Assembly: GCA_028706195.1 (NCBI GenBank)
Contig: JAQWBU010000007.1
Location: 1-34,019, forward strand
Direction of reading: 5' to 3'
DNA: 34,019 nt
Source of the DNA: Eubacteriales bacterium
Lineage (GTDB): Bacteria; Bacillota; Clostridia; Saccharofermentanales; DTU023
Part shown: piece by piece, positions 14,138-19,077 of the stretch
How positions within the stretch are numbered: the stretch's first letter is position 1
Layout: each line of letters opens with the position of its first letter
The notes under the pieces: model-generated
What the model was told of the DNA's origin: nothing
The model's database searches: none
The model's input: the letters and a program-made list of their open reading frames with translations, nothing else
Program-made: the position numbers and the translations under genes

Positions 14138-14205
14138 CTGTCTTGTCACGCGAATAATTTCTGTCTTGTCACGCGAATAATTTCTGTCTTGTCACGCGAA
14201 TAATT
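14138..14205. repeat. Three tandem copies of a 23-bp repeat
   Basis: The unit begins CTGTCTTGTCACGCGAATAA and ends TTT. Copies are at 14138-14160 and 14161-14183 (identical) and 14184-14205 (identical over 22 bases, diverging at the last). The array fills the gap between the M28-like gene stop and the nfeD ribosome site, and the third copy overlaps the M28 stop codon. On the minus strand each copy contains GTGACA, a -35-like hexamer, but no matching -10 is seen. Confidence 0.9.
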
Positions 14206-15544
14206 ATTGATCATAAACATAGTCTATGGGACCACGTCTGGCCAGTTGAACCAGTATAAAGGCAGTATTATTGATGCGCTTTGTCAGGCGATTATCATCA
14301 TAAGCCCTTGTATCCGCTGGCTCTTCTTTTTCGGTTCCGTTAGTTTCCGTGTTCGTGGCATCGCTTTCTGTTACAGCTGGCCATTCAATAACAGTATCTT
14401 CCTCTTCCAGCGTACGGAAGAATTCCTCCAGATAATCGCTTTCATCGAATAAGCTGCCGGAGATCATGCCGTTAGTCGGTGCGAAACGAGGGCTCGTGTT
14501 TTCCTGACCGAGGTCTTCTTTAGTAACATTATAGTCACCTGACTCAATGAATACGATCGGAATTCCTGCTCTATCAAACGGTGTGTGATCAGACTCAATT
14601 ACGGTCCATTCCCGGTAGAGTCCCAATTGTGTTGCTCCACCTCCCAGTGGAGAGTAAGGCATGAAATAATCGGACTGATTAGTATATACAGCATAACTGT
14701 TCTGTGTATTCAGCATGTAGTCAAAGAACACGTCCGTTACCTGATACAGTTTGCGGCGCATCTCGTAATCCTTCTCAGCTCCGGGCAAAACAGAATTTTG
14801 TCCTGCGTGAGCGTAGATCTTATCACCGGCATAGATCGGTCCGATGTTTACCATAGCATCGATCAGATTTATTTCACTATCGGATAAAGATTTAAGATAA
14901 GCTTTGGCACCTTCCTGTTTATAAGTTCCGGAGCCAAAGAACACAAAATAAATATCGTAACCCGGTTTTACCTGCAGCATTTGCTTTGCGGCCATCAAAA
15001 CTGCTGCAACACCTGATGCATTGTTGTGAATACCATCAGCCGTATTAGAAGGCACGTAGCCATTTTCATCAGCTTCAGGAGTGAATTCCGGCGTATCATA
15101 GTGAGCGCCGATAATCAGAATTCTGTCATCAATTTTTGCAGCTGCACTCTCCGATCGGTCTTGTTCGAACTGCGGAGAATAGCTAAAACCCTCTCCATTT
15201 ATTTTTGCTATGATGTTTTGTGATTCCGTTGGTACACCGGTCTTGTAAAAAGAGAAATCCTGTTTTTGCGGCGAGTATCCCATAAGTTTAAGCTGATCGA
15301 ATATAAACTGAGCAGCTCCTGCTTCTTCGTCTGATCCAGGAGTACGTCTGGAAAAATTATGGGCCAGTGTCTCTGCGAATTCTGCCCCGGCGGTACCGTA
15401 AGCGGCATCACGTGTCTTGGCTTCAGGCTCATCTGTCTGACAGGCAAACAAAGGCAGCGCCAGAAGTATCAGGGCTAAAACAAAACAAGTATAACGGATA
15501 ATGGATCCGGCTTTATTCAGGGGCAATGGTTTATCGAGTGACAC
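14204..15544 (-). CDS. M28-family lipoprotein, probably catalytically inactive
   Basis: A 446-residue exported lipoprotein: basic N-region, hydrophobic core and lipobox LFAC with the lipidated Cys at 35. The body (about 50-385) has the fold markers of M28 zinc aminopeptidases: GAHYD with H148 and D150, an NASGVA segment, and ESDHTPF with H320 followed by GIPIVF. However, the bridging Asp of DNASG is N174, the catalytic/ligand Glu pair is G206-T207 (FFGSGT in place of FGAEE), and the later Asp ligand (NLD) is G235. Most zinc ligands are thus absent, suggesting a binding or scaffold role rather than peptidase activity. Residues 390-417 are a low-complexity Thr/Glu-rich linker. The start is GTG at 15544 with a distant GGAG, so the exact start is uncertain. 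Confidence 0.8.
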   Translation of the reverse strand: MSLDKPLPLNKAGSIIRYTCFVLALILLALPLFACQTDEPEAKTRDAAYGTAGAEFAETLAHNFSRRTPGSDEEAGAAQFIFDQLKLMGYSPQKQDFSFYKTGVPTESQNIIAKINGEGFSYSPQFEQDRSESAAAKIDDRILIIGAHYDTPEFTPEADENGYVPSNTADGIHNNASGVAAVLMAAKQMLQVKPGYDIYFVFFGSGTYKQEGAKAYLKSLSDSEINLIDAMVNIGPIYAGDKIYAHAGQNSVLPGAEKDYEMRRKLYQVTDVFFDYMLNTQNSYAVYTNQSDYFMPYSPLGGGATQLGLYREWTVIESDHTPFDRAGIPIVFIESGDYNVTKEDLGQENTSPRFAPTNGMISGSLFDESDYLEEFFRTLEEEDTVIEWPAVTESDATNTETNGTEKEEPADTRAYDDNRLTKRINNTAFILVQLARRGPIDYVYDQ

Positions 15545-15603
15545 GAGGTCTCTAAACTCCTTTATATCTGCTATTTCCCTTTAATTTTAGCATACAATCA
15601 TTA

Positions 15604-15632
15604 TTGCTTCTTAAATGAAAAGACCCTATCAT
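15604..15632 (+). promoter_or_regulatory. Candidate promoter of the S11-like gene
   Basis: TTGCTT (15604-15609), a 17-bp spacer, then TATCAT (15627-15632), which has 5 of 6 matches to the -10 consensus. The -35 box is weak. It lies 30 bp before the start codon of the plus-strand gene, in the 117-bp divergent gap shared with the M28-like gene. Confidence 0.35.
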
Positions 15633-15661
15633 TATCTTGTACCAGTTGAAAGGGCGCTGTA

Positions 15662-17203
15662 ATGGTGGGCACAACACGTTCCAATAAACATAAGAGATTT
15701 TCTTGTTCAAATAAAATCGCACTGTCCATCGTTGCCTTTTTCATCTTTTTAATTCTCCTGACAGCTGTTGTCCTTATAAGCGGAGAAACAGTTCTTGCTG
15801 CTGACGGTGATGAGGGCAGCATGGCTGCAGCATTTGATCCGCCCTTCAAGCTGCCGGCGGGACTTGCATTTAATGCTCCCGGGCGTCCCCTGCTCTACAG
15901 CCATAATTCTGAAATTCCCCTGGAGATCCCTGCTGCCTCACGTTTAATGCTGCTTCTGATCAGCTCCGAACAAATTACAGCTGATGAGACGATACTTATA
16001 TCAGAAGAGGCGGAAAAACTCGCAACTTTCGAAATGAACACAAATCTTAAGCTTGAGAGCGGTATGACCCTGCCTTACCGCTACCTCATGCTAAGACTGC
16101 TGATGCAAAACTCTGACGCTGCCGCGCTGGCGATTGCCGAACACATCAGCGGCGGCGAGGATGACTTTTTGGAAATAATGCAGCAAAGAGCCTCCGAACT
16201 GGGTATGATCAATACCGAATTTCACACTGTGCTTGTCTCCAAAGCAGAGCGGGAAAACCAGGCTCCTGCTTTTTTCGCAGATCCCTCAATTGACTGGGGC
16301 TCTTTTACTTATGAAAAAAACGAAAATCAGGGATTCCAGGTGATAATAGGTGGCCAGCCGGTGCCGACTATTATTCCTGACTTTCAGGATATGGAAATAC
16401 ATACAGCCAAAATCAACCTAAATGATATGTGTTTACTGGCGCAGGCTTTAAACTCCAGCAGATCAGCGCTGGATTATCTTCGTGTCACCGAACAGCTGGT
16501 TTCTGTGCGCGTGGATAGCGGTGACAGGGTAATACCGATGCGTTCGAATGTTTCCCGCTTATTCACTCTTTCCGAAGGGGACGTTGAAGCTGCTTATCAT
16601 CATCGCTCTGAACGCTTTTCGCTGACTATGAGCTTTGGCCAAAGCGATGGAGAAATCCGCATCACCACTTTGCTGCTATCAGCCAATCAAAGTCCGATGA
16701 TAGACGAAACACTGAAACTCTATGACAGTATTGATCAGTATTACCAGCGCATAGCTCTAACTGAGGCAGGCTCTCCTGTTCCCGGACACAGAGAAAGTAC
16801 AGAAAGCGGAGAGAGCTTTTCTTTGCAATATCTGGACACGGTTTATTATGTTCACCCTAAGGACAACTTTTATCTGAAAGACGATGTCATTTATGTGGGC
16901 AACGCCCCCTATTTCCTGCCTATTCAAAAGGGAAGCATGACCGGTCAGATAATTTTCGAGATGCTGGACGGTACAAGAATACCAGTCCGGGTTGGCCCTG
17001 ATCGTGACATTATTTCATCTAATACTGCTATGGCCAGGCTGGTCAGTCTGCTCTATAATAACGCGAATTTGGGCCGTTTGATTATTGGACTGGCCGTATT
17101 TATCTGCCTCATTCTCATAATTCTTTTAATCAAAGAAATTTATCTATTGCTGTACTGGCGGCGTATGCGGAGACTGGAACGCGCCGGGCACCCTGAAAAA
17201 TAG
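15662..17203 (+). CDS. S11 (DD-carboxypeptidase family) membrane protein lacking catalytic motifs
   Basis: 513 residues: signal-anchor helix (about 18-42), an S11 penicillin-binding-type domain (about 60-345), a beta-rich PBP5_C-like domain (about 385-445), and a C-terminal transmembrane helix (472-497) ending in a basic tail. S11 homology is clear from AAALAIAEHISG, the MQQRASELGM segment and the spacing of the elements. Yet the SxxK motif (usual PASTTK) reads P90-A-A-S-R-L95, the SxN motif (usual SAND) reads Q149-N-S-D, and the KTG position reads S304-E-G. All three active-site motifs are gone, so it should not cleave D-Ala-D-Ala. The ribosome site is AAAGGG, 8 nt before ATG. It diverges from the M28-like gene and its stop is 6 bp from the convergent membrane gene. 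Confidence 0.82.
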   Translation: MVGTTRSNKHKRFSCSNKIALSIVAFFIFLILLTAVVLISGETVLAADGDEGSMAAAFDPPFKLPAGLAFNAPGRPLLYSHNSEIPLEIPAASRLMLLLISSEQITADETILISEEAEKLATFEMNTNLKLESGMTLPYRYLMLRLLMQNSDAAALAIAEHISGGEDDFLEIMQQRASELGMINTEFHTVLVSKAERENQAPAFFADPSIDWGSFTYEKNENQGFQVIIGGQPVPTIIPDFQDMEIHTAKINLNDMCLLAQALNSSRSALDYLRVTEQLVSVRVDSGDRVIPMRSNVSRLFTLSEGDVEAAYHHRSERFSLTMSFGQSDGEIRITTLLLSANQSPMIDETLKLYDSIDQYYQRIALTEAGSPVPGHRESTESGESFSLQYLDTVYYVHPKDNFYLKDDVIYVGNAPYFLPIQKGSMTGQIIFEMLDGTRIPVRVGPDRDIISSNTAMARLVSLLYNNANLGRLIIGLAVFICLILIILLIKEIYLLLYWRRMRRLERAGHPEK

Positions 17204-17209
17204 TTCTGC

Positions 17210-17755
17210 TTATTTCCTGTGAAGCCAGGGTTTGATTCTATCGAAATAAAAAGCTTCATAATTCAAAAGCGCATAGCGATAGGCAAGCAGCACGATCTGG
17301 AAAGCGACAAAAATAATCAGCCAGATCAGCCATGTTTCCAGGTTTAGACGATTTACGATGAAACTGTCCAATCCGACAATCCTGATAACTGCGATCAATA
17401 TAAGACTCATTAAGCTGTGACTGATAAGGTATTGTAAAAATTTGGACAAGCCGCTCCGGTAAAGCCGGAGTATTATGAGTGGCAAAGGTCCTGCAAAGAT
17501 GGCAAAGGCGAGAGCGTGAATAACACCGGGATACATCAGACTTAAGACACTGATACCAAGTGCAAGCAGAACAGCTCCGCTGATCCGAAGTTCAAAGTAA
17601 GCTGTTGCTACTATGAGAGAAGCCAGGAATAGTAAAAAGAGGCGGCCTGTTGGCAGGACACCTGAGAGGATAACGAAAATCCAGCCCAAAGCCATTAAAA
17701 TTCCGCTTAAGGCGATTGTGTAAGAGGATCGTGAAGATTTATTATCAGGTGGCAT
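17210..17755 (-). CDS. Six-helix integral membrane protein, function unknown
   Basis: I do not recognise a named family with certainty. The 181-residue protein is almost wholly hydrophobic, with about six membrane segments near residues 13-35, 37-55, 57-76, 78-98, 105-127 and 140-165, and short basic ends. A Pro-Thr-Gly-Arg motif (PTGRLFLL) follows the first helix. Size and helix number resemble small ECF-transporter S components, but no substrate signature is seen. The ATG at 17755 has no good ribosome site (the region reads GAGCATTAATT), so the start is uncertain or translation is weak. It is 48 bp after the J-domain gene in the same direction and converges with the S11-like gene. Confidence 0.7.
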   Translation of the reverse strand: MPPDNKSSRSSYTIALSGILMALGWIFVILSGVLPTGRLFLLFLASLIVATAYFELRISGAVLLALGISVLSLMYPGVIHALAFAIFAGPLPLIILRLYRSGLSKFLQYLISHSLMSLILIAVIRIVGLDSFIVNRLNLETWLIWLIIFVAFQIVLLAYRYALLNYEAFYFDRIKPWLHRK

Positions 17756-17803: not shown

Positions 17804-18196
17804 TTAGCAACAAAGGCAAAGATCGCCGCCCATGCATTCGCAACAGGAGTCCGCACAACATAGACAGGTCAGCTGCTCACAGCAACCAGTGCCAGAGGAG
17901 CGGTAATAGGGCGATTGATTTTGTGGCTGTTGTTGATAAAAAGGACCCTGATAGCTGCCATAAGGGTTCTGATAAGGCGGTCTCTGGTATGGGCCCCTCT
18001 GCTGCTGACCACCTTTAGTTAACTGGTCGTAGGCGTTGTTGACTTCCTTCATCTTCTCCTCAGCCAGTTCTTTCATATTAGGATCCTGATATTTGTCCGG
18101 GTGATATTTCTTGGTTTGCTCGAGATAAGCATCACGGATTTCTTTCTCCGTGGCTCCGGGCCTGACACCTAAAACATCGTATGGATCTTTTGCCAT
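17804..18196 (-). CDS. Small J-domain protein with cysteine-rich C-terminus
   Basis: 130 residues. The J domain (1-65) has an intact HPD at 32-34 and is followed by a Gln/Pro/Tyr-rich linker (about 65-100). A cysteine-rich tail (about 103-130) starts GTGCCEQLTCLCC and ends GGDLCLCC, with more than ten Cys in 28 residues. It is not DnaJ itself: it has no Gly/Phe region or CxxCxGxG fingers. The J domain should recruit DnaK, while the Cys tail may bind metal or a cluster, or anchor to a membrane if acylated (inference). The ribosome site GGAG is 7 nt before ATG. It lies 29 bp after the DUF5685 gene, and in my recollection this pairing recurs in Clostridia. Confidence 0.85.
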   Translation of the reverse strand: MAKDPYDVLGVRPGATEKEIRDAYLEQTKKYHPDKYQDPNMKELAEEKMKEVNNAYDQLTKGGQQQRGPYQRPPYQNPYGSYQGPFYQQQPQNQSPYYRSSGTGCCEQLTCLCCADSCCECMGGDLCLCC

Positions 18197-18225: not shown

Positions 18226-19077
18226 CTATAAGCGAGGCAGTTCTACACCGGCCAAAATACGTTCTCGGGTTCGACTCAAACCAATGGTGGCAACATTTCC
18301 TACGATAGCGCCATCGCGCTGATAAGGCAGGAGAGCCAGGAGCCGATCAACTTCTTCTTCGCATTCTTTGAGCTTTTCCTCTACAAATATCCGGCTGTCC
18401 GGCTCGGAAAATTTCAGCAGGGGATTCCATTGCTTATTATGAAGATCGTCTTCCCTATCGTCAAATGCATCCATCAGATAAATCCATTTCCCCAGAGCAA
18501 AGCCAACCTCCGGCAGCACTCTGATCAACATGTCGCGATCGGGATGATCCAGCAGCCTGGCACCCTCGGCAAAAAGCTCCGCCAAAAGTCGGCCAAAGAT
18601 GTCCGCCGCAGAGGGATCATAGTCGCCTTTTTCAATATCATTCAGTTCGCGCAATGAAGCTGCGATATTCGCAGACAAGTCCGGATAGAGTCTGCTTGCT
18701 TTTCTCCCTGATCGCCTGAGTAAAAGGCTTTGCGCCCGACCCAGAAATGGTCTTTCGTCCCGTGCGTTATCAAGAGCGGAATAGTAGGCAAGAATGATGC
18801 TGCTGTCCGCAGCAAAGTCAAGCGCTGCATGGTGCTTGCTGATCGGCTTCTTCTTAAGGGGGTTTAAAACACAGCCCTCCTGCACGATCTCACTATCTTC
18901 AAGGGATAACGACAAAAGAAGCAGCGCCAGAAAAGTCATGTCGTAAGTGACGACACTGCGTTGCAGATTACCATAACGTTCCTTTATGGTTTTGCATAAA
19001 CCACAATAAACAGAACGATAGCGGGTAAAATCACGCATCAATAATAATTCTTTTTCCGGCCGAACATAACCAAACAT
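18226..19077 (-). CDS. DUF5685 family protein
   Basis: 283-residue, largely alpha-helical protein of the DUF5685 family, recognised from MFGYVRPEKE at the N-terminus, VYCGLCKT (C25, C28), the GCVLNPLKKKP segment (C69) followed by H82-H83, and KWIYLMDAFDDREDD near residue 198-211. No function is established. Two Asp motifs, D103-x3-D107 and D203-x3-D207, are about 100 residues apart, a pattern and size like squalene/phytoene synthases; this is my inference. The conserved Cys/His residues could bind a metal. ATG 19077 follows AGGAT. It is first in a unit with the J-domain Cys-rich gene (29-bp gap) and diverges from glnS. Confidence 0.82.
   Translation of the reverse strand: MFGYVRPEKELLLMRDFTRYRSVYCGLCKTIKERYGNLQRSVVTYDMTFLALLLLSLSLEDSEIVQEGCVLNPLKKKPISKHHAALDFAADSSIILAYYSALDNARDERPFLGRAQSLLLRRSGRKASRLYPDLSANIAASLRELNDIEKGDYDPSAADIFGRLLAELFAEGARLLDHPDRDMLIRVLPEVGFALGKWIYLMDAFDDREDDLHNKQWNPLLKFSEPDSRIFVEEKLKECEEEVDRLLALLPYQRDGAIVGNVATIGLSRTRERILAGVELPRL

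Follow-up and report, generated by a model that had tools for sequence, protein, structure and literature searches.

Within the window (the whole 34,019-nucleotide stretch that was analyzed, taken from a 1.67-Mb MAG), positions 15662 to 17203 of the forward strand form a single open frame encoding a 513-residue S11-like protein, here called S11ps for pseudo-S11. The Pfam model Peptidase_S11 (PF00768) matched residues 77 to 190 with 65.1 bits (E 8.9e-18), above its gathering score, and the same profile matched all 37 members of the order to which it was applied. A search with the single sequence retrieved structure-linked S11 enzymes, the top match being Bacillus subtilis DacB (3mfd, E 5.1e-10), and a profile built from 37 S11ps orthologues matched 3mfd at E 7.5e-32 across the S11 domain. 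Comparison of the S11ps domain with canonical paralogues by hhalign gave a probability of 99.5. The S11 architecture and well-preserved frame reported in the initial annotation are borne out by these results.

Four segments can be read along the protein. Residues 1 to 46 (15662 to 15799, forward strand, as are all four) form a probable cleavable signal peptide and are followed by a degenerate S11 (PBP transpeptidase-like) domain at residues 63 to 360 (15848 to 16741), which was placed by Pfam, the 3mfd profile match, and hhalign. Next comes a PBP5_C-like beta domain at residues 362 to 452 (16745 to 17017), and then a C-terminal transmembrane helix at about residues 472 to 491 (17075 to 17134), kept in orthologues and followed by a short basic tail that runs to 17200. 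The PBP5_C-like assignment derives from the position of the segment directly after the S11 domain and from a profile alignment that continues through the corresponding region of 6osu; the Pfam model PBP5_C (PF07943) matched 2 of 37 order members (best E 7e-4), the protein of the window not being one of them. This domain is the best conserved part of S11ps, with the lowest entropy among order members and a mean identity to the window protein of 50%, versus 37% and 28% for two stretches of the S11 domain.

Hydropathy analysis identified two hydrophobic stretches, at residues 19 to 40 and at about residues 472 to 491. Because TVLA|AD, at the end of the first stretch, resembles a signal peptidase cleavage site, and orthologue N termini are alike by eye, with comparable sites in many of them, the N terminus was read as a cleaved signal peptide. 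The mature protein is thus probably held by the C-terminal helix only, rather than anchored at both ends as originally proposed, and it presumably faces the surface.

The genes around S11ps form a block that was the same across the comparison loci of the order, consisting of DnaK, GrpE, HrcA, HemW, SPFH, NfeD, and M28 lipoprotein genes, followed divergently by the S11ps side with a small transmembrane protein, a J-domain protein, a DUF5685 protein, and a glutaminyl-tRNA synthetase-like gene (DnaK, GrpE, HemW, and the synthetase were named from their own sequences rather than by family search). The M28-family lipoprotein gene, here M28ps (14204 to 15544, reverse strand), was recognized by PF04389 (E 3.9e-15) and a lipobox and lies head-to-head with S11ps across a divergent intergenic region whose extent, 117 bp (15545 to 15661), follows from the frame positions. 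A promoter scan of positions 15400 to 17500 found promoter-like sites to be no commoner than in shuffled sequence. On the other side of S11ps, three reverse-strand genes were observed: one for a small protein with multiple transmembrane segments and no Pfam match (17210 to 17755), which is kept next to S11ps in 17 of 21 loci, one for a short protein whose N terminus resembles a J domain and whose C terminus is rich in cysteine (17804 to 18196; CCEQLTCLCCADSCCECMGGDLCLCC), and the gene for the DUF5685 protein (18226 to 19077), found in the block in most loci. Outside the order, the neighbors of S11ps genes differ.

All three active-site motifs that define S11 enzymes have been lost from S11ps, as the initial annotation had stated. 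Scanning the whole protein for SxxK or [KHR][TS]G returned nothing, so that, as far as sequence can tell, an intact Ser/Lys/Ser-x-Asn set elsewhere in the protein is impossible. The register of the former motifs, in contrast, had to be revised from the alignments. The former SxxK site corresponds to A91-A92-S93-R94 (15932 to 15943, forward strand) in both the MAFFT alignment and the 3mfd profile match, and the former SxN site to N150-S151-D152 (16109 to 16117, forward strand) by alignments and the same profile match; the positions first given, A92...L95 and Q149-N150-S151, were each off by one. For KTG, first placed at S304-E305-G306, alignments of distant sequences disagree by up to 4 residues. 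Relatives intermediate in sequence preserve the preceding V-D-G-G, as read by eye along the series VDGG-KTG (L100), VQGG-MIS (L049), VDGG-IYL (L045), ITGA-FYS (L041), and VEAA-YHH (window), which puts the site eight residues later, at Y312-H313-H314 (16595 to 16603, forward strand), a placement also based on column composition. AlphaFold models of the full protein (6 sequences) and of the S11 domain alone had pLDDT values of 38 and 37 (36.8), too low to lend structural support to this register, and were discarded.

Substitutions at these sites follow a pattern across the order. In 40 order members, the nucleophile column holds Ala (18), Gly (9), Leu (8), Val (3), or Ser (2). Arg occupies +3 in both of the Ser-bearing proteins; Lys is kept at that position in 9 of the 40. 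The KTG lysine position is Tyr, Phe, or Trp in 34 of 37 members, and the former SxN serine has become His, Asp, Asn, or Gln in nearly all, while S151 is near invariant (36 of 37) and A154 is also conserved. A complete catalytic set was found in 0 of 40 order members versus 30 of 30 canonical S11 paralogues, ruling out chance or an annotation artifact as the origin of the motif loss. One such canonical S11 gene, with STTK, SAN, and KTG, lies on another contig of the source genome, which therefore does not depend on the S11ps gene for an active enzyme.

Maintenance of the inactive protein, also suggested by the initial annotation, is supported by its distribution and by selection. S11ps was present in 42 of 59 related genomes, with the same residues lost order-wide, and orthologue frames were free of stop codons despite high divergence. 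Against two genomes of the same genus, S11ps had 67 to 68% identity and a dN/dS of 0.06 to 0.11, similar to HemW, with the ratios being rough because dS is near or beyond saturation. The gene was absent from 17 of the 59 relatives, including one represented by a single 1,809,746-bp contig (G039) and the f2 genomes, so that on a longer time scale it can be dispensed with.

A profile of the C-terminal part recovered the combination of S11 domain, PBP5_C-like domain, and C-terminal transmembrane helix in 54 of 391 genomes of the class; among 300 genomes of the phylum, it gave two weak matches beyond the class, plus the genome of the window itself. In an S11 tree (IQ-TREE, quick search, 105 rows, motif columns excluded), S11ps-type members of the class and order separated from canonical S11 enzymes with an SH-aLRT of 99, and the order members formed one clade, also with a support of 99. 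Two class rows (L115 and L116) clustered with the canonical enzymes. Judged by its motifs, the S11ps clade ranges from fully intact to fully dead members. For example, L098, L100, and L101, representing one other family in the Clostridia clade, share the domain order of S11ps yet keep SxxK, SxN, and KTG, L106 has Ala for the nucleophile Ser with KTG kept, and other class members are more damaged. Six losses explain this pattern if losses are irreversible, and plain parsimony with regain needs fewer; the number is approximate, as the tree leaves part of its inner branching unsettled and includes several long rows.

The head-to-head neighbor is degenerate as well. M28ps orthologues have HNNASG for DDxASG, GT for EE, and NIG for NLD, whereas most retain HxD and SDH. 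The EE pair was missing from every order orthologue read, and the Asp of DDN is kept in some members. In sequence comparisons that also included 2ek8, EE was present at this site in the 9oqa relative and in class relatives elsewhere. M28ps lacks the combination of Asp/Glu metal ligands and catalytic Glu by which an M28 protein was counted as active. The motif loss extends to order members without S11ps, and because the dead M28 protein occurs there alone, the two proteins are not obligate partners.

A role in sporulation was considered and rejected. SpoIVA was found in 0 of 19 order genomes, versus 10 of 11 genomes from other families carrying the clade, so S11ps is kept where sporulation seems lost, and on this gene content the order appears not to sporulate. 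Germination genes or dapB lie near clade members in other families and are not neighbors of S11ps in the order. Separately, a Spo0A_C match in order members (G000:C151:40013-40207) was weak and partial, covering about 65 of 104 positions, in contrast to other families that carry the clade.

Of the characterized S11 DD-carboxypeptidases, B. subtilis DacB (3mfd), Staphylococcus aureus PBP4 (3hum), and Escherichia coli PBP5 (1nzo) resemble S11ps in having an S11 domain, a signal sequence, and a C-terminal domain at the PBP5_C position. S11ps differs from them in lacking SxxK, SxN, and KTG, in the aromatic residue at the KTG lysine position, and in its clear C-terminal transmembrane helix with a basic tail. 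Where a role is known for dead homologs of wall enzymes, as for the LytM factors, the proteins belong to other folds. The degenerate LytM factor DipM (PMC10336132) is one dead wall-hydrolase homolog with a demonstrated regulatory role; like S11ps, it is an exported protein without catalytic residues, and a comparable action by binding is what we propose for S11ps. Such factors have the M23/LytM fold and are not homologous to S11ps, and regulation has been demonstrated for them, whereas for S11ps we infer it. A search of an open-access literature library turned up no account of S11 proteins that form a dead family.

We propose that S11ps is a pseudo-DD-carboxypeptidase, exported and anchored in the membrane by its C terminus. 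It would have arisen by duplication of an active S11 enzyme, the copy later losing the nucleophile together with its partner residues. The purified protein would be expected to be inactive in the test tube, and covalent beta-lactam binding is not expected from a protein without the serine. Because S11ps is a maintained, noncatalytic, membrane-anchored S11 homolog, it would act through binding rather than through hydrolysis or acylation, and we consider such a binding role quite probable. The surfaces involved may be those of the S11-like body, which has been retained, and especially of the conserved membrane-adjacent PBP5_C-like domain. The protein would most likely position or tune a cell-wall enzyme on the external side of the membrane, much as degenerate LytM factors do with amidases, although this assignment as regulator or scaffold, which leans on that analogy, is tentative and falls somewhat short of being probable in itself.

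Among the alternatives, the one with the greatest likelihood, while still improbable, is that S11ps and the divergent M28 lipoprotein form a complex of dead peptidases on the outside of the membrane, for example as a receptor or scaffold. Animal nicastrin and the transferrin receptor are dead M28 proteins, and M28ps resembles them in having an M28 domain without catalytic ligands, but it is a bacterial lipoprotein that evolved separately. The two genes stay head-to-head in nearly all order loci read, across large sequence divergence, both have lost catalysis order-wide, and both products are predicted to be exported and membrane bound. However, slow rearrangement alone can explain a conserved gene order, an M28 neighbor was found in 0 of 20 loci read outside the order, one genome (G051) carries S11ps without an adjacent M28ps, and, as described above, M28ps persists in order genomes that lack S11ps. 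Somewhat less likely again is that S11ps holds stem peptides or peptidoglycan uncut in the old cleft, as a lectin-like wall anchor. Retention of the S11-like body and of S151 and A154 would fit this idea, but the residues that contact substrate have not been kept, since the KTG lysine is mostly aromatic and the SxN serine replaced, and conservation peaks outside the cleft, in the C-terminal domain. An aromatic side chain at the lysine position, as placed by our alignment, argues against simple retention of a D-Ala-D-Ala pocket.

Pseudoenzymes sometimes retain or alter chemistry, and the members with Lys at +3, like the two with Ser at the nucleophile column, could be taken as signs of a replaced catalytic mechanism. 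With a nucleophile column that varies among five residues and a general base that is not conserved, we regard this as very improbable. Decay of a relic without present function has the lowest likelihood of all; it would account for the absence of the gene from some relatives, but not for open frames in divergent orthologues, a dN/dS of about 0.1, or the high conservation of the C-terminal domain. Beyond the preferred reading of S11ps as a binding protein, a wider and rather doubtful extension would be that the catalytic losses were several times independent with the membrane-proximal domain kept each time, and that in this order, without SpoIVA, S11ps and the dead M28 lipoprotein make up an envelope module that consists entirely of pseudoenzymes and controls wall synthesis.

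On homology alone, genes of the S11ps type would be misread as D-alanyl-D-alanine carboxypeptidases and wrongly counted as beta-lactam targets. The dead M28 lipoprotein beside S11ps offers a second, testable protein, and the clade, running from intact to dead, is a natural series in which to study at what point an enzyme of the penicillin-binding type turns structural or regulatory. One class member (L104, G397:C1:1397000-1399500) carries Cys in place of the nucleophile Ser with SxN and KTG kept, and is possibly an intermediate between active and dead forms.
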